Assembly (NCBI RefSeq): GCF_019635465.1
Contig: NZ_JAHBZK010000001.1
Span: 186,001 to 250,000 of the forward strand
DNA from: Hydrogenophaga sp.
GTDB taxonomy: Bacteria > Pseudomonadota > Gammaproteobacteria > Burkholderiales > Burkholderiaceae_C
DNA length: 64,000 nt
Direction: 5' to 3'
The number at the start of each line of letters is the position of its first letter. The stretch's first letter is position 1. Positions 29,117-46,160 of this stretch are shown piece by piece. Under the pieces are notes generated by a model. It saw nothing but the letters and a program-made list of their open reading frames with translations. It did no database searches and was not told where the DNA came from. The position numbers and the translations under genes are program-made.

Positions 29117-30202
29117 TCACGCGGCGTCGCGGAACAGGCTGCGGCTGGCGAACAGGGGGTTGTCGTCTTTCACCATGGCGGGCTCCCGGTGGTAGCGCTC
29201 GATGCGCTCGACCTCGTGCTTTGATCCGAACACCAGGCCGATGCGCTGGTGCAGGCCATCGGGTTGCACCGCCAGCACGGGCTCGCGCCCGGTGCTGGCG
29301 CGTCCGCCGGCTTGCTCCATCACCATGCCGATGGGGTTGGCTTCGTAGAGCAGACGCAGGCGCCCGGGTTTGCTTGCGTCCTTGGTGTCGCGCGGGTACA
29401 GGAACACGCCGCCGCGCATCAGGATGCGGTGTGCCTCGGCCACCATGCTGGCGATCCAGCGCATGTTGAAGTCCTTGCCGCGCGGGCCCGTGCGCCCGGC
29501 CAGGCATTCGTCCACATAGCGCTTGACGGGTGGCTCCCAGAAGCGCGCGTTGGAGGCATTGATCGCGAACTCCTGCGTGTCGTCGGGGATGCGGATCGAC
29601 GGGTGCGTGAGCTTGAATTCGCCCAGGTTGGGGTCCAGCGTGAAGCCGTGAACCCCTGTGCCCACAGTGAGCACCAGCATGGTGGTGGGTCCGTAGAGCG
29701 CATAGCCGGCCGCGACCTGCTGGGTGCCGGGTTGCAGAAAGTCGGCGGTGGTGAGTTCGCGGCCCGAGGCCACTGCGTCGGCCGGCGCGCGCAACACGCT
29801 GAAGATGCTGCCGACCGAGACGTTGACGTCGATGTTGCTGGAGCCATCGAGCGGGTCGAACACCAGCAGGTACTTGCCGCGCGGGTACTCGGCGGGAATG
29901 GCACAGGGCTCGTCCATTTCTTCGGACGCCATGGCCGCCAGATGGCCGCCCCACTCGTTGGCGCGCACGAACATGTGGTTGGCGATCACGTCGAGCTTTT
30001 GCTGCGCCTCGCCCTGCACGTTGGTGCTGCCTTGCGCGCCAAGCACGTCGCCCAGCGCGCCGAACGCCACGCTGCGCGCGATGGCCTTGCAGGCCATGGC
30101 CACGTCAAGGATCAGGGCGTTGAAGTCACCGCTGGCCTCGGGAAAGCGGCGGCGCTCTTCGATCAGGAACTGCGTGAGGGTGGTGCGGCGTGACAGGGGC
30201 AT
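29117..30202 (-). CDS. cbbF: Class I fructose-1,6-bisphosphatase
   Basis: A 361-residue FBPase acting on fructose-1,6-bisphosphate (and in some autotrophs sedoheptulose-1,7-bisphosphate) in the Calvin cycle. Metal-binding motifs are ASEEMDEP near residue 92-99 and [11 protein letters not shown] at 115-125. The sugar-phosphate-binding segment [10 protein letters not shown] and the KLRLLYE-like sequence [11 protein letters not shown] match class I. It lies between cbbX and cbbP in the operon with 27 bp upstream. A chromosomal glycolytic copy elsewhere is likely but not visible here. Confidence 0.95.
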
Positions 30203-30229
30203 GGTCTCCTCGCTCGGTGCGTGTGTGGC

Positions 30230-31183
30230 TTACGGTGTGGTGGGTTCGGCGAAGACGCGGCTGGCACGGATGTCCTCGGCCCCGAGAGTGCACAGGTCAT
30301 CGGGGGTCAGCACCCGGTCGCGGTCTGCGAACAATCGGCTGGCCTGGCGCAGCCGGGCACGGTCGAGCGCGTTGCGCACGCTGCGCGCGTTGGCGAAATG
30401 GGGCTGCGCCATGCGCCGGCTCAGGTAGGCTCCGAACACCTCGCGCGCGCCGGGCGCAAAGCGGTAGTGCATTGCATCGAGCATGCGGTCGGCAATCTGC
30501 TGGAGCTCGCTCTGGTCGTAGTCGGGAAAGTCCAGGTGGTGCGCGATGCGCGAGCTCATGCCCGGGTTGCTCTGGAAGAAGGTGTTCATGCGGTCGGCAT
30601 AGCCGGCCAGGATCACCACCAGGTCGTCGCGCTGGTTCTCCATCACCTGCAGCAGAATCTCGATCGCCTCCTGCCCGTAGTCGCGCTCGTTCTCGGGCCG
30701 GTACAGGTAGTAGGCCTCGTCGATGAACAGCACGCCGCCCATGGCCTTCTTGAGCACTTCCTTGGTCTTGGGCGCGGTGTGACCGATGTACTGACCCACC
30801 AAGTCGTCACGGGTCACGGCCACGAGGTGCCCATGCCGCACGTAGCCCAGCCGGTGGAGGATCTGCGCCATGCGCATGGCCACCGTGGTCTTGCCGGTGC
30901 CGGGGTTGCCGGTGAAGCACATGTGCAGCGAGGGCGTCTGCGCCTGCAGCCCATGCAGCAGACGCAGCCGATCGATCACCAGCAGCGCGGCGATGTCACG
31001 GATGCGCTGCTTGACGGGCGCCAGCCCCACCAGGTCGTGGTCGAGTTCGGCGAGCACCGCCTCGACCTGGCTTTGCGCCAGCACCTCGCCCACGGTGCGT
31101 GGCGGGGCCTCGGTCGGTGATCCGGCCTCGGCCGCATCGTCGACCTGGCGGGTGCCCGGGATGGCGTACAGCGGCGCGCTCAT
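30230..31183 (-). CDS. cbbX: Red-type RuBisCO activase CbbX (AAA+)
   Basis: A 317-residue AAA+ ATPase that removes inhibitory sugar phosphates from red-type RuBisCO by pulling on the large-subunit C-terminus. Walker A GNPGTGKT is at 92-99, Walker [11 protein letters not shown] near 153-162, the pore loop YIGHTAPKT near 134, and the arginine-finger and sensor region toward [13 protein letters not shown]. In Rhodobacter it is activated by ribulose bisphosphate. It starts 8 bp after cbbS, which fits the form IC assignment of the RuBisCO. Confidence 0.96.
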
Positions 31184-31191
31184 CGACGACC

Positions 31192-31626
31192 TCAGTAGCG
31201 TTGCGCTTCGGGTTTGTCGGTCGCGTAGCTGTGGACCGTGTAGCGGATCTGCCGCCCATCGACCTCCTGGCGCACCAGACCAAAGCCGGGTTCGTTGGCC
31301 GGGCGGTTGACGATGAAGCTCATGGCGATGCTTTCGATGCCGCGCGTGCTGTCGAACGCCATGAGGCGGATGTAGTGCTGCGGGAAGGTCTTGCGGCAGT
31401 TGGCCAGTTCAAGCATCACGCCGGCCGGGTCGCGCAGGTCGAACATGGGCATGCCGAACATTTCCCAGTAGGTGTTGCGCGGGTGCGGGTCGTCGGTGTA
31501 CTCCACGCTCCAGGCATAGCCCTTGTCCAGACCGTAGGCGATCTGGGCGCGGATCTCGTCGTCGCTGAGCTCGGGCAGGAAGCTGAACTGGCCTTGCGTC
31601 ACGCGGCCGGTGGGGTTGGTCATCAT
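31192..31626 (-). CDS. cbbS: RuBisCO small subunit, form IC
   Basis: A 144-residue subunit of the L8S8 carboxylase. It begins [19 protein letters not shown]; an AGGAG 9 bp before the first of two adjacent ATGs makes 31626 the likely start, 31623 being equally possible. The conserved [16 protein letters not shown] segment is present, and the C-terminal extension ([13 protein letters not shown] onward, about 45 residues) is the hairpin found only in red-type small subunits, where it lines the central pore. It lies 25 bp after cbbL. Confidence 0.96.
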
Positions 31627-31651
31627 GGTCGGTGTCTCCTGGTGAATGAAC

Positions 31652-33217
<1,566 letters not shown>

Positions 33218-36724: not shown

Positions 36725-36740
36725 TGGCATGCAATTTGCG
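36725..36740 (+). promoter_or_regulatory. Sigma54 promoter of the creatininase operon
   Basis: TGGCATGCAATTTGCG has GG and GC exactly 10 bp apart and fits TGGCAYG-N4-TTGCR. The match continues as AACC and is nearly the same as the promoter at 43443-43458. It lies 49 bp before the ATG at 36789. Confidence 0.85.
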
Positions 36741-36788
36741 AACCTTCGCACTCAAACGCGGAGACACCCGGAACCCCTCGGAGCCCCC

Positions 36789-37628
36789 ATGTCAATGAAC
36801 CCCTCGCGCCGCTGGGCCGACTGGACGGCGCGCGATTTCGCCGACCTGCAGGCCAGCGGTCGCGCCGCGCAGGCGATCGCGGTGTTGCCGATCGCCGCGA
36901 TCGAGCAGCACGGCCCGCACCTGCCAGTGAGCGTGGACACCACCCTGGTCGACGGGGTCATCGACGCTTGCCTGCCGCACCTGAAACCCGATGCCACGGT
37001 GCTCTTCCTGCCCACGCAAGCCGTCGGCAAGAGCAACGAACACGCACGCTATGCGGGCACCCTCACCTTGTCGGCCGACACCTTGCACGCCATCTGGATG
37101 GAGCTGGGTGCCTGCGTCGCGCGCGCTGGCATCGGCAAGCTGGTGCTGCTCAACAGCCACGGCGGTCAGGTGGCACTGATGGAGACCGTGGCACGCGATC
37201 TGCGCGTGGCGCACAGCTTCGTGGTGGTGTCGACCAACTGGTTCACGCTGCCCATGGCACCGGCCGTGCGCGCCCTGTTCACCGACGAGGAGCACCGCTT
37301 CGGCATCCACGCCGGTGACGTCGAGACCTCGATGATGCTGGCCCTGGCGCCGCACACCGTGCACATGGATGCAGCGCGCGAATTCCCCAACGCCATGGCC
37401 GAGCGCGCGCGCGACTATCCCTTGCTGGGCAGCGGTGCTGGCAAGGTGGCCTGGCAGGCGCAAGACCTCAACACCTGGGGCGCCGCCGGTGACGCCACGG
37501 GTGCCAGCGCCGCCAAGGGGCAGGCCGTGATCGACGATGCGGCACGCCAGCTGGCGGCCCTGCTGCACGAGGTGGACCGACTACCGCCCCACACCGTGAC
37601 CGAACAGACCGTGTGGCGATCCGCATGA
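36789..37628 (+). CDS. Creatininase-family amidohydrolase
   Basis: A 279-residue metal-dependent hydrolase of the creatininase/MftE family. GGAG at 36780-36783 sets the start at 36789 rather than the in-frame ATG at 36795. Metal-binding motifs are present: AIEQHGPHLPVSVDT near residue 35-50, NSHGGQVALM near 118-127, and GIHAGDVETSMML near 176-188. Members open cyclic amides such as creatinine or act on formamides, and the substrate cannot be chosen from sequence. It is the first gene of a sigma54-type operon and overlaps the amidohydrolase by 4 bp (ATGA). Confidence 0.88.
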   Translation: MSMNPSRRWADWTARDFADLQASGRAAQAIAVLPIAAIEQHGPHLPVSVDTTLVDGVIDACLPHLKPDATVLFLPTQAVGKSNEHARYAGTLTLSADTLHAIWMELGACVARAGIGKLVLLNSHGGQVALMETVARDLRVAHSFVVVSTNWFTLPMAPAVRALFTDEEHRFGIHAGDVETSMMLALAPHTVHMDAAREFPNAMAERARDYPLLGSGAGKVAWQAQDLNTWGAAGDATGASAAKGQAVIDDAARQLAALLHEVDRLPPHTVTEQTVWRSA

Positions 37629-38824
37629 ACACCGAACTCCATGCCGTGCGCATCCCCGCCGCCTTGCGTGGCTTCGGCGGCAAGGCCGGTGCAGACGCCG
37701 TCTTCAACCTGCAATGGCACGGTGAGCACATCACCGCCATCACGCCCTGCCCCGCCGGTACGCCTGCGCAAGGCCTGCTGTTGTCGCCGCTGGTGGACCT
37801 GCACCTGCACCTGGACAAGACCTACACCGTGCAGGACACCGGTGCTGCCAACGGCGACCTGTTTCGCGCCATCGACATGATCGCGGCGCACCGCGCCGGC
37901 TGGACGCGCGAATCGCTGCGCCCACGCATGCAGCGCGCCCTGCAGGAAGCCTGGGACCACGGCGTGCGCGCGGTGCGCACCCACATCGACTGGATGACCC
38001 CAGACCGACCGCCTGCGGTGGACGTGATCGCCGAACTGCGACAGGCCTGGCGCGAGCGGCTGCAGATCCAGTGGGTGTCGCTCACCGCGGTCGATCAGTT
38101 CGACGACACCGAATGGGCGCACTGGCTGGCGCGCGCGGTGAAGGCCGGCGGTGGCGTGCTGGGCTGCTTCATCTACCGCCATCCCGGGTTGCCGCGCCGG
38201 CTGCGCACGGTGTTCGACCTGGCCGAGGCCTACGACCTGGAGCTGGACTTTCACGTCGACGAAGGCCTGCACGTCGACGCTACCGGCCTGCGCAGCATCG
38301 CCGAGATGACGCTGCAGCGGCGCTGGCAGGGACGCGTCACCTGCGGCCACGCCTGCTCGCTGTCGGTGCAGACCGCCGACGACGCACAACAAACGCTGGC
38401 CCTGGTGGCCCAGGCCGGCATCACGCTGACCGCCCTGCCCACCACCAACCTCTACCTGCAAGGCAGCTGGAGCGAGACGCCGGTGCCGCGCGGCATCACC
38501 CGCCTCAGTGAAGCCCGCACGGCCGGCGTGCGCACCTGCCTGGCCAGCGACAACGTGGCCGACCCCTTCTTCCCCTATGGCTGCTACGACCCGCTGGAGG
38601 CCTGGGCACTGGGCGTGCAGGCGGCCCACCTGGCACCGGCCGAAGACTGGCTCGACAGCGTGACCGTGGCGCCCGCACAGACCATGGGTCTGGCCTGGGA
38701 CGGCCGCTTCAACAAAGGCTGCCCGGCCGACTTCATCGTGCTCGACGCGCACGACGGCCTGCAGGCCATGGCCCCTGCCGGCCGCCGACGCCGCATCTGT
38801 CGCCAGGGGCAATGGATCACCTGA
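37625..38824 (+). CDS. Cytosine-deaminase-like amidohydrolase
   Basis: A 399-residue TIM-barrel amidohydrolase. Metal ligands are visible as LHLHLDKTY near residue 58-66, FHVDEG near 209-214, GHACSLS near 242-248, and ASDNVADPF near 300-308, the pattern of the CodA/N-isopropylammelide branch, which deaminates or hydrolyses pyrimidine and triazine rings. True CodA substrates need further residues that I cannot confirm. It starts inside the creatininase stop, so both are made together and probably act in sequence on a nitrogen heterocycle. Confidence 0.85.
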   Translation: MNTELHAVRIPAALRGFGGKAGADAVFNLQWHGEHITAITPCPAGTPAQGLLLSPLVDLHLHLDKTYTVQDTGAANGDLFRAIDMIAAHRAGWTRESLRPRMQRALQEAWDHGVRAVRTHIDWMTPDRPPAVDVIAELRQAWRERLQIQWVSLTAVDQFDDTEWAHWLARAVKAGGGVLGCFIYRHPGLPRRLRTVFDLAEAYDLELDFHVDEGLHVDATGLRSIAEMTLQRRWQGRVTCGHACSLSVQTADDAQQTLALVAQAGITLTALPTTNLYLQGSWSETPVPRGITRLSEARTAGVRTCLASDNVADPFFPYGCYDPLEAWALGVQAAHLAPAEDWLDSVTVAPAQTMGLAWDGRFNKGCPADFIVLDAHDGLQAMAPAGRRRRICRQGQWIT

Positions 38825-38831
38825 GCACTGC

Positions 38832-40298
38832 ATGACCACCTCACCACCGAACACACCTCCGGCTGCATCACAGACCACGCCGCTGCACCGCGTCATGGTC
38901 GCGCTCGATGGCATCGCCATGAGCACCGACCCTACGCAGCTCGAGCTCAAGAGCCAGGACTATCACTGGTACAGCCCCATCCTGAAGGCGCAGCTCCAGG
39001 ACTGCCGTGGCGAACTCATCGTGCGGCCGGTGACCGAGGACGAGGTGATCCGCGTGGTGACGGCGTGCGCGCGCGAACGGGTCAAGCTGGTCGTTCGCGG
39101 AGGCGGTACCGGCAACTACGGGCAATGCGTGCCGCTCGAAGGCGGCGTGATTCTGGACATCACCGGGCTGGACCAGGTGCTCGAGATCGGCGACGGCTGG
39201 GTGCGCGTGCAGGCGGGCTGCAACATCATGGCGCTGGAGCGCGCGGTGCGCGCCAGCACCGTGGTGCCCGGCGGGCAGGAATTGCTCATGTACCCGAGCA
39301 CGCGCGACACCGCCACCATCGGCGGCTTCATTGGCGGCGGCTATGGCGGCGCCGGCAGCGTGCGCAACGGCATCCTGAAAGACCCCGGCAATGTCTCGCG
39401 GGTGCGCATCGTGACGATCGAGGAGACACCGCGCGTGATCGAGCTCGACGACGCCGACATCCAGAAAGTGCACCACGCCTTCGGCACCAACGGCGTCATG
39501 ACCGAGTTGACCCTGGCGCTCAAGCCGGCGGTGGACTGGGTGCACCACATCGCGCTGTTCCCCACCTACCGCCGCGCACTGGAGTTTGGCGTCGCGGCCA
39601 CCGAGGCCTGCGCGCGCGCCAACCCCATTCGCGGCTCCGACGCGCCGCCCGTTCCACCTGGACCGGCGATCGACGCGTTCGAGATCACCGCGGTGGACCA
39701 GCGTTTCGCGCCCTTCTATGCCGACGCCTTCGGCGATCGCTTCCCGGCCGGACAGGACGCCGTGTTCGCCATGGTCAACCCGCGCGATCTTCCCGCCTGG
39801 CGAGCGCTGGTGCACCGCTTTGGCGGCACCGAGACTATGGCCATGACCGAGGACGAGCTCACGCGCGAGGGCCTGGTGCCGGCCTTCGAATGTGCCTGGA
39901 ACCACACCACGCTGATGGCGCTGCGCCACGACAAGAGCTGGACCAACCTGCAGACGGTCTACGGCTGGCCGCTGGACATCGACCTGGTGGAGCGGCAGAT
40001 GCAGCGCTACGGCGACGAGCTGGTGATGCACCACGAGTTCGGCCGCGATCAACACGGCTTCGTGGTGTTTGCCTTACCGCTGGTGGCGTACTTCGACCGC
40101 GAGCGGCTGTACGAAATCATTCGCGAGCACGAGGCCGATGGCTGCCTGGTGTTCGACAACCACGTGGTCACCATCGAGGGCGGCGGCATGAAGACCATCG
40201 ACACCGCGCAGATCGACTTCAAGAAGCTGGCCGACCCGCACGGGCTGATGAACCCGGGCAAAGCCGAAGGGTGGTTGCCCGAGTACGCCAGACCCTGA
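38832..40298 (+). CDS. FAD-linked oxidase (FAD_binding_4 family)
   Basis: A 488-residue flavoprotein of the VAO/PCMH fold. The N-terminal FAD-binding domain (about 60-240) contains RPVTEDEVIRVV, VVRGGGTGNYGQ (the diphosphate-binding loop), VPGGQELLMYPSTRDTATIG and GGFIGGGYGG. The C-terminal substrate domain ends in DPHGLMNPGK, as in glycolate/D-lactate oxidase subunits. The His or Cys that would anchor FAD covalently is not evident. It lies 7 bp after the amidohydrolase and probably oxidises the ring-opened or related product; the electron acceptor is unknown. Confidence 0.85.
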   Translation: MTTSPPNTPPAASQTTPLHRVMVALDGIAMSTDPTQLELKSQDYHWYSPILKAQLQDCRGELIVRPVTEDEVIRVVTACARERVKLVVRGGGTGNYGQCVPLEGGVILDITGLDQVLEIGDGWVRVQAGCNIMALERAVRASTVVPGGQELLMYPSTRDTATIGGFIGGGYGGAGSVRNGILKDPGNVSRVRIVTIEETPRVIELDDADIQKVHHAFGTNGVMTELTLALKPAVDWVHHIALFPTYRRALEFGVAATEACARANPIRGSDAPPVPPGPAIDAFEITAVDQRFAPFYADAFGDRFPAGQDAVFAMVNPRDLPAWRALVHRFGGTETMAMTEDELTREGLVPAFECAWNHTTLMALRHDKSWTNLQTVYGWPLDIDLVERQMQRYGDELVMHHEFGRDQHGFVVFALPLVAYFDRERLYEIIREHEADGCLVFDNHVVTIEGGGMKTIDTAQIDFKKLADPHGLMNPGKAEGWLPEYARP

Positions 40299-40311
40299 CG
40301 GCGCCACACCC

Positions 40312-40902
40312 ATGCAGACCCTGATCGTTCACGCCCACCCCAACCCCGAGAGCTTCAGCGCCGCGCTGTTTCGCCTGGCCAAGGACACGCTGCAGGCCCA
40401 GGGCCACGTCCTCGACACCATCGACCTCTACGCCGAAGGCTTCGATCCCGTGCTGTCTCGTGACGAGCGCGCGGCCTACCTCGAGGCGCCCGACTGGCTG
40501 CTGCAGCGCTTTGAAGGCCACATCGGGCTGATACGCCGCGCCGAACATATCGTGCTGGTCTACCCCACCTGGTGGTGGGGACCACCCGCCATGCTCAAGG
40601 GTTGGCTGGAGCGCGTGTGGCTGCCCAAAGTGACCTTTGAACCTGCGCGACGCAAGGGCGAACGGCTGAGCCCGAACATGCGCCATGTGCGCCGCTTCAC
40701 CGTCATCACCCACGGCGGCTCGCCCTGGTGGTGGCTCAAGTTCATGGGCGACCCGCACCGGCGCATCATGATGCGCGGCATGGCCATGCTGTTTCACCCG
40801 CGCTGCCAAAAGACCTGGCTGCAGTTGCACGACATGAACAACGTGACGACCCGCGACCGCGAGGCATTCATGGCACGGGTGACGCAGGCGCTGACGCGCT
40901 GA
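40312..40902 (+). CDS. Flavodoxin-fold NAD(P)H oxidoreductase (NQO/MdaB-like)
   Basis: A 196-residue FMN/FAD quinone-reductase-like protein. The N-terminal flavin loop is LIVHAHPNPESFSAAL (residues 4-19), and the conserved VYPTWWWGPPAMLKGW (about 83-98) and THGGSPWWW segments bind the flavin ring. Members reduce quinones or flavins with two electrons from NAD(P)H. It lies 13 bp after the FAD oxidase and closes the creatininase operon; it could supply reducing power or re-oxidise a product of that pathway. Confidence 0.88.
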   Translation: MQTLIVHAHPNPESFSAALFRLAKDTLQAQGHVLDTIDLYAEGFDPVLSRDERAAYLEAPDWLLQRFEGHIGLIRRAEHIVLVYPTWWWGPPAMLKGWLERVWLPKVTFEPARRKGERLSPNMRHVRRFTVITHGGSPWWWLKFMGDPHRRIMMRGMAMLFHPRCQKTWLQLHDMNNVTTRDREAFMARVTQALTR

Positions 40903-40925
40903 GCCAGCGCCCGGACACTCTCGAC

Positions 40926-42803
40926 TCAGTACGTGTAGAACCGCCCCTTGGTCGTTCCCGTGCTGATCGGGGCGCTGGGCGCGTCGGCACCGACCACGGT
41001 GTATGTGTAGCCAATGGCATCCGAGTAGGCAATTGACCGCCCAAAGTTCTCGTTGGCGATGGGTGAGGGCGACTTCAACCGGGCCCACAGATCCCAGCCC
41101 GACGAAGACCGCCAGAACTGGTAAACCGCGCCCGCACCACCCACAGAACCACCGGCCTCGGCCGCAACCTGGTCCTTGCGTTGCACACCGGCGAATGCAC
41201 TGTTGTTTTCAGGGGCACCCACCCAGAGCTTGTCGTCCAGCGCGAGAAGGGTCTTGCCAAAGCGTTCCCGCGACGTGGGTTGTGTGGCATTCAGCATCGC
41301 CGAATACTGCCATCCCGATCCGCCGTAGGCCCACACATGCACCCGTCCCGCGCTCGTTGCGAGACCAATATCCGCCTCAGGTTCGCCAATGGCGAGCGTT
41401 TGGCCAGTGCGCGATAGGGACACCACCGATCCGAATGAGGAGGTCAGCGGCTTTGCGTTCGGTGAGGTGGAGGCCGCAACCACATTGCTGACCCATTGCC
41501 CCCCGAGATGGAAGACATTGACTGAGCCGCCATACGGCGCCTCAGGGAGCCGCGACGCACCCGGCGCTCCCACTGCCAGCCGATCTCCGAAGTAAGAGCC
41601 GCCCAATGCGTAGCCAAAGTAGGCACTCTCCGTTGGCCTGTCACTCTTGATGTAGCTGGCCCACTCAAAGGCGCCTGTGGCGGAATTGCGCACCAGGGTA
41701 TAGACGGCGCCGTAGTCTGCGTCCGCGGCGGCATCCCCGCCCACCGTGGCCAGGGCATCGGCCCTGAAGACACCTTGAGCCGGGCTGTCTTCAAAGGGTG
41801 CACCCACTGCAATCCCGGGCTCTCGCGTCGAAGGCGAACTCGGCGGGGTGTCGACGACAACCGCCAAAGACGTACCGAATTCGTCTCCCTGCCCCGCATT
41901 GGGCGCCGTAAACGTGGCCTTCCAAGTCCAGAGGTCGTTGTTGCCAAGCACATAGAGGGCCACCGCCCCGGCGTTCATTTTCTGGTCGGCGGTATTGACA
42001 CCGATGTCGAACCCCGGAACGCCAACGAACATGCCGGTGCCCCCCGTACCGAGCGATGCGAGGCGCAGGCTGCGTCCGAAATCGTCGCCATATCGCGCAC
42101 CGGGCAGCGTCAAGGTTTGCACCAGGCGCCAGCTGGATTCGCCCTTGGTTCGCGCCAGCGTCACCACAGCGCCCGCACCACCATTGGCCTCGGGAATCCC
42201 AATCGTCAATTTGGCCTCGCCCCTGAAGACGTAGGTTTCCATCGCCGACCCCACAGTGGATCGACCCGGCACGCCAGGGATCTCACCAACGACGACGGCA
42301 CTCTTCAATCCTTCGGCAGCGGCCCCCACCCCCAACAGTTCACACGTGGACAAGGACACGGTCGCATCGGCCGAGGCGCAGCCGTATACGTCGTACGTGC
42401 TGTGGACGGCGTTGGCCAGGTCGAGCTCCGTGCCAATGTCGAAGCGATCCCCTTGAATGCCGGTTTGAACGGGCCCGGGTTGGGGTGCGCCCGGCCCAGT
42501 GGGGCCATCCGGATCGACCGTGGTTCGGTAAAAGGTCACGCCGTCGACGGGTCCCCATTGCAATTGAGCGCCGCGACTGGGTGTCCCAACGAGCGCGGCG
42601 GAGAAGGTGGGTGCTGGTGCTGGTGCTGGTGCGGGCGCTGGTGCGGGCGCTGGCGCTGGTGCGGGCGCTGGTGCGGGCGCTGGAGCAGGTGCCGGCGCCG
42701 TGGACACCCGGGTCGTGTGGCTGCCACTGTCGTCCGAGCCGCCACCGCCGCACGCACTCAGCAGTGCCGCGCAAGTGAACAACAACCCGATGCTCCGATC
42801 CAT
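40926..42803 (-). CDS. FG-GAP-like repeat lipoprotein with Ala-Pro spacer
   Basis: A 625-residue outer-surface lipoprotein. The start at 42803 (MDRSIGLLFTC) is preferred over the ATG 6 bp upstream because GGAG is correctly spaced only for it. The lipobox is LLSAC followed by a Gly run, so Cys is lipidated. A (Ala-Pro) stretch of about 15 units forms a stalk. The rest has about seven repeats with the motif VGxPxxD or IGEPEADI (for example VGVPGFDIG, VGAPFEDS, VGAPGASR, VGAPENNS), as in FG-GAP/integrin-type beta-propellers. It is convergent with the reductase gene and its role is unknown. Confidence 0.82.
   Translation of the reverse strand: MDRSIGLLFTCAALLSACGGGGSDDSGSHTTRVSTAPAPAPAPAPAPAPAPAPAPAPAPAPAPAPTFSAALVGTPSRGAQLQWGPVDGVTFYRTTVDPDGPTGPGAPQPGPVQTGIQGDRFDIGTELDLANAVHSTYDVYGCASADATVSLSTCELLGVGAAAEGLKSAVVVGEIPGVPGRSTVGSAMETYVFRGEAKLTIGIPEANGGAGAVVTLARTKGESSWRLVQTLTLPGARYGDDFGRSLRLASLGTGGTGMFVGVPGFDIGVNTADQKMNAGAVALYVLGNNDLWTWKATFTAPNAGQGDEFGTSLAVVVDTPPSSPSTREPGIAVGAPFEDSPAQGVFRADALATVGGDAAADADYGAVYTLVRNSATGAFEWASYIKSDRPTESAYFGYALGGSYFGDRLAVGAPGASRLPEAPYGGSVNVFHLGGQWVSNVVAASTSPNAKPLTSSFGSVVSLSRTGQTLAIGEPEADIGLATSAGRVHVWAYGGSGWQYSAMLNATQPTSRERFGKTLLALDDKLWVGAPENNSAFAGVQRKDQVAAEAGGSVGGAGAVYQFWRSSSGWDLWARLKSPSPIANENFGRSIAYSDAIGYTYTVVGADAPSAPISTGTTKGRFYTY
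42611..42700 (-). repeat. Hexamer repeat encoding the Ala-Pro stalk
   Basis: Fifteen 6-bp units of the type GTGCTG, GTGCGG or GCGCTG (plus strand) encode Ala-Pro dipeptides. The units are similar enough to change number by slippage while keeping frame. Confidence 0.9.
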
Positions 42804-42954
42804 GCCCATATCTCCAAAGCCGACGCACATCGCGCCCAACGGAACAGTAAGCAGGCGCTGCAGCACCCACATCCCGCCATGGCCCTAGGCTGTCGGCTGG
42901 ACGGCTGAGGGACACTGGCTATGCTTCGCTTTCCAATTCGTCACGAGAGCACGC

Positions 42955-43419
42955 ATGCGCACTTCCACCGCAGCCCCCATGGCCCGCTACGCGGCGGCCC
43001 GTCGCGTGGGCGACCACCTGTACCTGAGTGGCATCGTGGCGGTGGACGCCGCCTCCGGCGGGGTGTTGCAGCGCTACGACGCCTTGCCATCCGCCGCGCG
43101 CGAGGCACTGCGTACCAAGGGTTACGACACCGGGCAGCTGTCGGTCGATGTGTTCGAGAGTCCGATCGTGGTGCAGAGCTGGGTGGTGCTCGAGCGCATC
43201 CGGCAGCTGGTCGAGGACCATGGCGGCGATCTCGCCAACGTCTGCCGGCTGGTGCAGTACTTCACCGACCTGCGCGATTACCCGGCCTACAACCGCGTGC
43301 GGGACCTCTTCTTTGCGGAGCCGGTGGTCAGCACGGTGGTGCAGGTCAGCGGCATGCTGCCGGGCGAAGGCGTGCGACTGGAGGTGGAAGCCACCGTCTG
43401 GCTGCCGCCCACCAGGTAG
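42955..43419 (+). CDS. RidA/YjgF/YER057c/UK114-family protein
   Basis: A 154-residue protein with the RidA/chorismate-mutase-like fold. Family features include LYLSGIVAVDAASG near residue 22-35, an Arg in ALRTKGYDTG, the VCRLVQYFTDLRDYPAYNRV segment and VVQVSGMLPGEGVRLEVEATV at the end. RidA proteins hydrolyse reactive enamine/imine intermediates, and relatives such as RutC act in pyrimidine breakdown. The Arg105-equivalent catalytic residue is not clearly present, so it may be a RidA-like subfamily. It lies 35 bp before the transporter's sigma54 promoter. Confidence 0.85.
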   Translation: MRTSTAAPMARYAAARRVGDHLYLSGIVAVDAASGGVLQRYDALPSAAREALRTKGYDTGQLSVDVFESPIVVQSWVVLERIRQLVEDHGGDLANVCRLVQYFTDLRDYPAYNRVRDLFFAEPVVSTVVQVSGMLPGEGVRLEVEATVWLPPTR

Positions 43420-43442
43420 GGCAACGCCACGCGCCCGCACAT

Positions 43443-43458
43443 TGGCATGGAGTTTGCG
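43443..43458 (+). promoter_or_regulatory. Sigma54 promoter of the ABC transporter operon
   Basis: TGGCATGGAGTTTGCG matches TGGCAYG-N4-TTGCR with the GG-N10-GC spacing and is followed by AACC. Core and flank are the same as at 36725-36740 except the four spacer bases. Predicted transcription start near 43470; the SBP start is at 43502. Confidence 0.85.
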
Positions 43459-43501: not shown

Positions 43502-44482
43502 ATGGCTTCGATCCGGACCCGCAGTGCATTGACCCTGGCCGCGCTCGCCTTGTGCAGCGGGGCCTTCGCCCAGGAAAAGTTCACCTACGTCACCAACTGG
43601 TACGCCCAGGCCGAGCACGGCGGCTTCTACCAGGCGATGGCCGACGGCAGCTACAAGGCCGCCGGGCTGGACGTGACCATCCGCATGGGCGGGCCGCAGG
43701 TCAACATCATGCAGATCATGGCCGCCGGCCAGGCCGAGTGCGTGATGGGCTACGACGTGCAGACCATGAGCGTGCGGGCGCAAGGCATCAACGCCGTGAC
43801 GGTGGCCGCCTCCTTCCAGAAGGACCCGCAGGTGCTGGTGGCGCACCCCGACGTGAAGAAGATCGAGGACATCAAGACCAAGACCATCCTGGTCTCCAGT
43901 GCCGGCACCACCACCTACTGGCCCTGGCTGCGCAGCAAGTACGGCCTCAGCGACAGCCAGATGAAGCCCTACACCTTCAACATCCAGCCCTTCATCGCCG
44001 ACAAGAACATGGTGCAGCAGGGCTACCTGTCGTCCGAGCCCTTCGCGATCGAGAAGGAAGGCGGCTTCAAGCCCAGCGTCTTCCTGTTGTCCGACCACGG
44101 GTGGCCCCCCTACTCGACCACCATCGTCTGCATGGAAAAAACGGTCAAGGAGCGCCCGCAGGCGCTGGCCAAGTTCGTCAAGGCCTCGATGGAGGGCTGG
44201 AAGAAATATCTCACGGGTGATCCCTCGGCCGCCAACGCGCTGATCAAGAAGGACAACCCGAACATGACGGACGACAAGATTGCGCATGGCATTGCGCAAC
44301 TCAAGGCCACCGGCATGGTGTTTGGCGGCGACGCAGCCACCATGGGCGTGGGCATCATCACCGACGCCCGCATGAAGGCCACCTTCGACATGCTGGTGGC
44401 CAACAAGCTGATCGACCCCAAGGTGGACTACAAGGCCACCTACACCGACCAGTTCGTCAAGGACTTGAAGATCCTGCCCTGA
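43502..44482 (+). CDS. ABC transporter substrate-binding protein (NMT1/ThiY-like)
   Basis: A 326-residue exported binding protein with AAGGAG 5 bp before the ATG at 43502. The signal peptide ends near residue 23 (ALCSGAFA). The mature protein follows the NMT1/ThiY/SsuA class: FTYVTNWYAQAEHGGFYQAM at the first lobe, VNIMQIMAAGQAECVMGYD, and VQQGYLSSEPFAIEKEGG at the hinge. ThiY binds a pyrimidine, SsuA sulfonates; the ligand here is open, though aromatic residues (Trp, Tyr) line the expected pocket. First gene of a three-gene transporter operon. Confidence 0.9.
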   Translation: MASIRTRSALTLAALALCSGAFAQEKFTYVTNWYAQAEHGGFYQAMADGSYKAAGLDVTIRMGGPQVNIMQIMAAGQAECVMGYDVQTMSVRAQGINAVTVAASFQKDPQVLVAHPDVKKIEDIKTKTILVSSAGTTTYWPWLRSKYGLSDSQMKPYTFNIQPFIADKNMVQQGYLSSEPFAIEKEGGFKPSVFLLSDHGWPPYSTTIVCMEKTVKERPQALAKFVKASMEGWKKYLTGDPSAANALIKKDNPNMTDDKIAHGIAQLKATGMVFGGDAATMGVGIITDARMKATFDMLVANKLIDPKVDYKATYTDQFVKDLKILP

Positions 44483-44499: not shown

Positions 44500-45288
44500 A
44501 TGAGCGAACTCCCCCCTGCGATCGAAGTCCTGTCGGCCGAGCAGACCTACCCCAACGGCACGCGCGCCTTGCTGCCGGTGGATCTGCAGGTCGCGCAGGG
44601 CGAGTTCGTCACGCTGCTGGGGCCTTCGGGCTGCGGCAAGAGCACGCTGCTCAAGATGGTCGCGGGCATGCTGGACCCCACCGAGGGTCGCATCCTGCTC
44701 TGGCGCAAGCCGGTGCGCGATTTCGAGGCCGGCGGACGGCGCCTGTCGTTCGTGTTCCAGGAGGCCACGCTGATGCCCTGGGCCAATGTGCAGACCAACG
44801 TGCGACTGCCGCTGGATCTGGCCGGGCAGGCCCGAGGCGCCAGCGACGCGCGCGTGAACGATGCGCTGGCCCTGGTGGGACTGGAATCGTTTGCCACCCA
44901 CCGGCCACGCGAGCTCTCCGGCGGCATGCAGATGCGGGTGTCGATCGCGCGCGGCCTGGTGACGCAGCCGCACCTGTTGTTGATGGACGAACCCTTCGGC
45001 GCGCTCGATGAAATCACGCGCAACCGCCTGGACGACGACCTGCTGCGCCTGTGGCAGCAGCAACAGCTCACCGTCGTCTTCGTCACCCACTCGATCGCCG
45101 AGGCGGTGTACCTGTCGCAGCGCGTGGTGGTGATGGCGGCGCGCCCCGGCCGGGTGATCGAGCAGGTCGCCATTGACGAGCCCTACCCGCGCGGCCCCGA
45201 CTTCCGGGTCAGCCAGCGCTTTGCCGAGCACGCACGGCGCCTGCAGGACAGCTTGCTGCGCGCCAGCGGCGAAGCCAGCTATTCCTGA
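44500..45288 (+). CDS. ABC transporter ATP-binding protein (SsuB/TauB-like)
   Basis: A 262-residue ATPase for the importer. Walker A GPSGCGKST is near residue 41-49, the Q-loop is VFQEATLMPW, the signature LSGGMQMRVSIAR, Walker B LLLMDEPFGALDE, and the H-loop FVTHSIAEA. It belongs to the nitrate/sulfonate/pyrimidine-type importer subfamily that pairs with NMT1-like binding proteins. It lies 17 bp after the SBP gene and 8 bp before the permease. Confidence 0.94.
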   Translation: MSELPPAIEVLSAEQTYPNGTRALLPVDLQVAQGEFVTLLGPSGCGKSTLLKMVAGMLDPTEGRILLWRKPVRDFEAGGRRLSFVFQEATLMPWANVQTNVRLPLDLAGQARGASDARVNDALALVGLESFATHRPRELSGGMQMRVSIARGLVTQPHLLLMDEPFGALDEITRNRLDDDLLRLWQQQQLTVVFVTHSIAEAVYLSQRVVVMAARPGRVIEQVAIDEPYPRGPDFRVSQRFAEHARRLQDSLLRASGEASYS

Positions 45289-45296
45289 GGCAAACC

Positions 45297-46160
45297 ATGG
45301 AAGTGTCTGCCCTGCCCGCCGCCGTGGTCGACCCACCAGCAGACGCCGCACCGACTGCTGCCACGCGCCCGTGGGTGCAACGGCGCGAGCTGATGCGCTA
45401 TCTGGCCCCGGTGCTGGTGGCCTTGCTGCTGCTGGTCATCTGGCAGACCTGGGTCGTGGTGGCCGAGATCCCCCCCTTCTTGGTGCCCTCGCCATGGTTG
45501 ATCGCGCAGACCCTGGTCAAGGACTGGGGCCTGCTGGTGGGCGCCCTGGGCGTCACGCTGTGGATCACCCTGCTGGCCTTTGTCGCCTCGGCCGTGCTGG
45601 GCACGCTGATCGCGTTCGTGTTCGTGCAGAGCCGCTGGATCGAGACCGCCTTCTTTCCCTACGCGGTGCTGTTGCAGGTAACCCCCATCGTGGCCATTGC
45701 CCCGCTGATCATCATCTGGGTCAAGGACACCACGCTGTCGCTGGTGATCTGCGCCACCATCGTCGCGCTGTTTCCGGTGATCTCGAACACCACGCTGGGC
45801 CTTCGCAGCGTCAACCCGGGCCTGGCGGCCTTCTTCAAGCTGCACCATGCGTCGCGCTGGGCGGTGTTATGGCGCCTGCGCATACCCAGCGCGCTGCCCT
45901 ACTTCTTCGGTGGCCTGCGCATCTCGGCCGGGCTGGCGCTGATCGGTGCGGTGGTGGCCGAGTTCGTGGCCGGCACCGGTGGCACGGGCACTGGGCTGGC
46001 CTACCAGATCCTGCAGTCGGGCTATCAGCTCAACATCCCGCGCATGTTCGCGGCGCTGGTGCTGATCTCGGTCACGGGCGTGGCCCTCTATCTGCTGCTG
46101 GCCGCGGTCAATCGCTGGGCCCTGGCCGGCTGGCACGACAGCGAGGTCGGGCCGCACTGA
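45297..46160 (+). CDS. ABC transporter permease (SsuC/TauC-like)
   Basis: A 287-residue inner-membrane subunit with about six helices (near 37-58, 80-108, 117-140, 142-165, 205-235 and 250-272). The EAA-loop contact site for the ATPase is around LRIPSALPYFFGGLRISAGLALIG, in which the canonical EAA-G is degenerate but the Gly and Pro are retained. The N-terminal 30 residues are Pro/Ala-rich and cytoplasmic. It completes the transporter operon; the next gene is convergent. Confidence 0.92.
   Translation: MEVSALPAAVVDPPADAAPTAATRPWVQRRELMRYLAPVLVALLLLVIWQTWVVVAEIPPFLVPSPWLIAQTLVKDWGLLVGALGVTLWITLLAFVASAVLGTLIAFVFVQSRWIETAFFPYAVLLQVTPIVAIAPLIIIWVKDTTLSLVICATIVALFPVISNTTLGLRSVNPGLAAFFKLHHASRWAVLWRLRIPSALPYFFGGLRISAGLALIGAVVAEFVAGTGGTGTGLAYQILQSGYQLNIPRMFAALVLISVTGVALYLLLAAVNRWALAGWHDSEVGPH

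Follow-up and report, generated by a model that had tools for sequence, protein, structure and literature searches.

Two putative sigma54 promoters in a probable nitrogen-acquisition gene cluster of Hydrogenophaga sp.

The cyanuric-acid genes AtzR/atzDEF of Pseudomonas sp. ADP, which belong to a nitrogen-heterocycle pathway, have a sigma54 promoter that NtrC can switch on with no binding site upstream, and the atzR promoter is thus an example that NtrC can activate where such sites are missing. Here we present the analysis of a stretch of 64,000 nucleotides from Hydrogenophaga sp. (contig NZ_JAHBZK010000001.1, positions 186,001 to 250,000; "the window" below means this whole stretch), in which two sites of the sigma54 type, P1 and P2, precede the catabolic genes and the transporter genes of a gene cluster. 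Compared with AtzR/atzDEF, the enzymes differ and no LysR regulator is tied to P1 or P2. On the whole, we consider it probable that this is a conserved nitrogen-acquisition cluster read from two sigma54 promoters, most likely activated by NtrC under nitrogen limitation.

The NtrC/RpoN nitrogen-scavenging operons of Proteobacteria, as described in extracts of PMC12316311, have the same gene classes and promoter type as the cluster reported here. Among the genes with a predicted sigma54 promoter, the extracts list those of nitrate-type ABC transporters (COG0600, COG1116, COG0715), nirB (COG1251) and cytosine/guanine deaminases (COG0402), and their searched text has no match for "creatinin" or COG1402. 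Unlike in those operons, two putative promoters serve one cluster here, and the NtrC dependence is a predicted one. NMT1-type transporters, including those of Hydrogenophaga, also appear in extracts of PMC7373994, where some NMT1-type genes are tied to a xanthine riboswitch (NMT1-motif). The transporter type is common to both cases, while the riboswitch is rejected for our locus, as an Rfam scan of the whole window returned nothing at or above the gathering score. Extracts of PMC5491218, PMC5748707 and PMC12746152 provide background only. In the open-licence PMC literature searched, no paper was recognised as describing this gene cluster. As an example of known sigma54 control the result is well supported, if of an ordinary kind; what it offers is a likely control, nitrogen status via RpoN, for an uncharacterised and recurrent cluster of catabolic and transport genes.

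The two sites and the genes behind them

The original prediction placed two nearly identical sigma54 promoters, with the GG-N10-GC spacing of RpoN, before a hydrolase operon and a transporter operon, and the sites are indeed found at 36725 and 43443. Both lie on the + strand, read TGGCATG-N4-TTGCGAACC and have the correct spacing of the sigma54 promoter core (GG-N10-GC, consensus TGGCAC/T-N5-TTGC), and they are the only two places in the window that match TGGCATGN4TTGC with zero mismatches. P1 starts 64 nucleotides 5' of the ATG (36789) of a creatininase-family gene. P2 starts 59 nucleotides 5' of the ATG (43502) of an NMT1-type binding-protein gene, and 24 nucleotides past the final base (43419) of a RidA-family gene. 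The sites and the genes of the cluster, with the short names used below, are as follows.

36725..36739, + strand: P1, sigma54 -24/-12 element TGGCATGCAATTTGC, then GAACC; wider reads TGGCATGcaatTTGCGAACC and TGGCATGCAATTTGCGAACC
36789..37628, + strand: CRN, creatininase-family hydrolase (PF02633, E 1.4e-65; under the NCBIfam cut-offs for true creatininase and MftE)
37625..38824, + strand: AMH, cytosine-deaminase-like amidohydrolase (PF07969, PF01979; best PDB match cytosine deaminase 4r7w, E 1.1e-36)
38832..40298, + strand: FAD, FAD-binding (VAO-type) oxidoreductase (PF01565; PDB 6v42, E 3.9e-105)
40312..40902, + strand: FLV, flavodoxin-like NAD(P)H oxidoreductase (PF02525)
42955..43419, + strand: RID, RidA-family protein (PF01042)
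43443..43457, + strand: P2, sigma54 -24/-12 element TGGCATGGAGTTTGC, then GAACC; wider reads TGGCATGgagtTTGCGAACC and TGGCATGGAGTTTGCGAACC
43502..44482, + strand: SBP, NMT1/THI5-like substrate-binding protein (PF09084, E 2.7e-26)
44500..45288, + strand: ATP, ABC transporter ATPase (PF00005)
45297..46160, + strand: PRM, ABC transporter permease (PF00528)

As to the identity of the enzymes, CRN scores 92.8 bits against the creatininase equivalog TIGR04448, below the cut-off of 235, while reaching the level of the Pfam superfamily, and AMH scores 320.6 bits against cytosine deaminase NF005759, below the cut-off of 403; only superfamily names are therefore safe for these two. The PDB sequence searches for a substrate give superfamily-level answers as well. 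The close relative of the FAD protein, 6v42, carries only the name "FAD/FMN-containing dehydrogenase" and is not named in the open-licence PMC literature searched, and the weak PDB matches of SBP include the formylaminopyrimidine-binding protein 3ix1. We infer that the substrate may be a pyrimidine-like or other cyclic amide or amidine nitrogen compound. Nitrogen control, if correct, would give a direct route to it, namely screening nitrogen sources.

Conservation and order in related loci

The 16-base match of the two sites had been held unlikely by chance, which is wrong as stated. Outside the simple repeat of a lipoprotein gene, the + strand of the window has 14 words of this 7-N4-9 shape that recur (two of them overlap, and the P1/P2 pair is one), and ten shuffles in blocks of 200 nucleotides contain 2 to 8 same-strand pairs of this shape each. 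Nor is TGGCATGN4TTGC enriched in the window at up to two mismatches, with 25 places seen against 33.6 expected. Since spaced repeats of that shape are common in the window, we reject the match as evidence in itself: a repeated motif alone was no evidence in this G+C-rich DNA, and the evidence came from the comparison of relatives. It is conservation, not window statistics, that lifts the putative promoter pair above chance.

The closest relative found is a metagenome-assembled genome titled Hydrogenophaga (locus L014; related loci are given by such numbers). Against it, each 15-nucleotide element keeps 14 of 15 bases, and the ungapped flanks of 30 nucleotides keep only 9, 10, 13 and 13 of 30. 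A P2-type site scores 14.2 to 15.7 in all nine SBP orthologous loci with at least 72% identity and an intact 5' end (the window, L014, L015, L016, L069, L070, L071, L072 and L073), on a sigma54 score that was, like the NtrC consensus used below, written for this analysis and has a maximum of 15.7; for each locus, between 0 and 4.6% of the random stretches drawn from it reach the P2 level. Among these loci L073 is kept because its 5' end is intact, the gene being frameshifted further on, whereas L074 is left out: its site TGGCACATAGATTGC is present, but the contig is collapsed there and lacks part of FLV as well as the start of SBP. Both FLV and SBP of L074 (G261:C7) are shortened internally, an assembly collapse being the probable cause. 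Loci that form same-locus pairs (L016/L041, L069/L040, L070/L043, L071/L042 and L072/L044) are counted once. In addition, L017, L079 and L080 have sites of 14.1 to 15.2 before SBP, one of the three SBP copies of L080 being without a site. When 30 SBP orthologues are scored, eight reach at least 14.2, namely 6 of the 6 nearest and 2 of the 24 others; half of these 24 have a shuffle p of at most 0.055, so weaker P2-type sites may be wider spread.

For P1 the picture is narrower. A P1-type site of at least 14.9 is found in the window, L014, L015 and L016, which are 4 of 25 CRN loci and the closest ones (the window and 25 found loci make 26, and L020 is left out with its CRN too near a contig end). 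The comparison of upstream regions proposed with the original prediction thus comes out in favour of P2 and, outside the closest relatives, not of P1. In the rearranged loci L079 and L080, one strong site precedes the first catabolic gene, which is FLV there, and another precedes SBP; L070 and L071 also have sites before FLV, but these are doubtful, with only 27 to 28 nucleotides to the gene match. No strong site precedes SBP in L075 to L078, whose SBP orthologues (62 to 69%) stand without catabolic genes. Predicted sigma54 control therefore characterises one group of Comamonadaceae loci and does not extend to all versions of the cluster. Within this group, the assignment of P1 and P2 to the sigma54 type agrees with their sequence, spacing and conservation, and both precede one functional gene set.

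The window had been described as holding distant, separate operons, and this does not hold. In L014, L015, L016 and L069 the genes CRN-AMH-FAD-FLV-RID-SBP-ATP are co-linear without a lipoprotein gene, and PRM comes next after ATP in three of the four, the contig of L016 ending in ATP. What parts the two halves in the window is a single gene.

40926..42872, - strand: lipoprotein-like gene between FLV and RID, with an APAPAP run and an FG-GAP match, outside the conserved cluster

Its product has a long Ala-Pro run and a weak match to FG-GAP. FLV adjoins RID in L014, L015, L016, L069, L017 and L024, and the lipoprotein gene is absent from all six of these junctions; at 1e-20, one of the 150 family genomes searched has a match to the protein, and this is the genome of the window. 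The gene is most simply read as a late insertion, and the two-operon look of the window would be a local product of it. Through this insertion RID would lie downstream of neither sigma54 site, unless transcripts from P1 read through.

Activators and like sites in the genome

The window belongs to a draft genome of 3.9 Mb in 29 contigs that is 88% complete. This genome has one copy of rpoN (PF04552, E 1.1e-64), and its ntrC (L003) passes TIGR01818 with a score of 677 against a cut-off of 558.6. Seven strong enhancer-binding protein (EBP) domains are detected in the genome, none of them on the contig of the window. The EBP motif is found neither in the window nor in 37 related loci, by a test that recovered six of the seven known EBPs, and this favours a global activator. 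A dedicated EBP linked to the cluster is rejected on the same ground, the member missed by the test being L001 with GAFTDA. L001 itself (C4:82177-85677) is a GlrR-like EBP whose sigma54-contact motif reads GAFTDA, not GAFTGA. Taken as a set, the 21 cluster sites are enriched in NtrC-like dyads of the GCAC-N7-GTGC type, with a mean score of 9.52 against 8.45 in shuffles (the mean being reached by 0 of 300) and 8.62 in random stretches (by 0 of 400).

Sites of the same type are enriched in the genome: 11 places match TGGCAYGN4TTGC and 4 its reversed control, the counts for the looser GGYAYRN4TTGC being 75 and 37, so a good share of the strong sigma54 sites should be real. Such sites also precede the nitrogen genes glnA and nirB. 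glnA has the sigma54 site TGGCATGGAACCTGC with a textbook NtrC dyad, GCACTGAAAAGGTGC, 107 nucleotides upstream, and nirB has TGGCATGCAACTTGCGAAC, nearly identical to P1 and P2, with a one-mismatch dyad at -66. The nitrogen-status signal suggested at the outset fits these results, rpoN and ntrC being present and the same site type standing before glnA and nirB.

The AACC flank, which had been counted as part of the shared element, fares in two ways. The orthologous places of L014 read TTGCGTTC and TTGCACAA, where AACC is not kept; TTGCGAAC recurs in the genome of the window before nirB and an amidase-containing cluster. GGN8TTGCGAAC is found in ten places against 5 for the control, and four of the ten have a good -24 element: P1, P2, the nirB site and TGGCACACGACTTGCGAAC at the amidase-containing cluster. 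By our own arithmetic at 67% G+C, the number of GAAC flanks expected from base composition among the 75 looser sites is about 0.23. It is worth noting that the GAAC flank may be a genome-level likeness among nitrogen-type promoters, as seen at these four sites.

We accordingly picture the working of the cluster in the following way. Nitrogen limitation would lead to a phosphorylated EBP, most likely NtrC, which would remodel RpoN-RNA polymerase at P1 and P2; P1 would drive the catabolic genes and P2 the transporter genes. Uptake and breakdown would then rise together, and P2 could raise the transporter separately. With the entry of the lipoprotein gene between FLV and RID, P2 would be left as the one promoter of the sigma54 kind near the transporter.

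Alternative explanations and further observations

Several results weigh against nitrogen control of the cluster through two sigma54 promoters. The remaining 21 of the 25 CRN loci are without a strong site (scores of at most 13.6), so that P1 is not conserved past the closest relatives; the CRN of G001 (L101) has only a weak site, TGGCGCGGTTCATGC; and no strong site is found before CRN or SBP in the cluster versions of Paraburkholderia, Caballeronia, Herbaspirillum, Variovorax YR216 and alphaproteobacteria. P1 does not rise above background in its NtrC-like dyad score (p 0.64 and 0.78); it has a one-mismatch dyad at -101, but dyads of this kind turn up in 21% of random stretches of 220 nucleotides. 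P2 has a partial dyad within RID (p 0.03 and 0.055), which is not kept in L014. A scan for a shared enhancer, proposed with the original prediction, finds no shared element in the upstream 200 nucleotides of P1 and P2: among 500 random pairs of stretches, 175 reach the same score. A shared enhancer at both promoters is rejected accordingly. Activation of the atzR type, without upstream sites, would fit the missing clear dyad at P1 and P2, and this lack is therefore not fatal to NtrC, which remains the likeliest activator by our inference, though a convincing binding site is found at neither promoter. It might instead be another EBP, from among the six further strong candidates, that acts at both sites on a carbon, redox or substrate signal; the number of EBP domains and the want of a convincing dyad speak for this, as do further sigma54 sites of the genome with carbon-type transporters behind them (a DctP binding protein, a TctA permease). 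We regard it as rather unlikely, considering that no EBP gene is near the cluster in the window or the 37 related loci and that the sites closest in sequence to P1 and P2 precede nirB, glnA and the amidase cluster.

The missing P1 in most CRN loci, together with the lack of statistical support in the window alone, would also agree with P1 and P2 being chance matches or relics, the genes being read from other promoters. This is very unlikely in view of the 15-nucleotide elements conserved between diverged flanks and of P2 in 9 of 9 loci, at a level that random stretches of the same loci seldom reach. Hardly more probable are two independent nitrogen-regulated units for different substrates that are merely close together. 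For these one can cite the SBP orthologues (62 to 69%) of L045 to L049, with no matches to CRN, AMH, FAD or FLV detected in the flanks examined, the wider flanks of L075 to L078, likewise without catabolic-gene matches, and the lipoprotein gene between the two parts in the genome of the window; on the other side stand the same order of all genes in four relatives and the more distant relatives, in which an NMT1-type SBP stays with CRN, FAD, RID or AMH though the order differs. Beyond coordinated uptake and breakdown under nitrogen limitation, which we prefer, it is conceivable, as a tentative extension, that the cluster encodes an undescribed nitrogen-heterocycle pathway widespread in Comamonadaceae, made up of a creatininase-like ring hydrolase, a cytosine-deaminase-like enzyme, FAD/FMN-type oxidoreductases, RidA and a thiamine-pyrimidine-like ABC transporter. 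Both sigma54 promoters would then have been kept through rearrangement so that uptake can rise apart from breakdown, and at P2 NtrC would either need no upstream site of its own or act from inside the coding sequence of ridA.

Some further loci of the genome were observed along with these results. In L086 (C12:228000-232000), divergent strong sigma54 sites at 1821 (-) and 1880 (+), about 60 nucleotides apart, lie between a Peripla_BP_6 binding-protein gene and a cluster with an amidase gene; this is likely a second nitrogen-compound locus. A perfect-scoring site, TGGCACGCTGATTGCA, stands before another NMT1-type binding protein in L085 (C12:211500-215000) at 1394 (+). In L005 and L082 (C3:99290-105000), a PAS-domain EBP gene is near a TctA permease gene with an upstream sigma54 site, and the pair is probably a locally regulated carboxylate uptake system. 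In the window itself, at 29117-33187 on the - strand, genes that by eye resemble a Calvin-cycle set (fructose bisphosphatase, a CbbX-like ATPase and RuBisCO subunits) stand beside a LysR-type gene.

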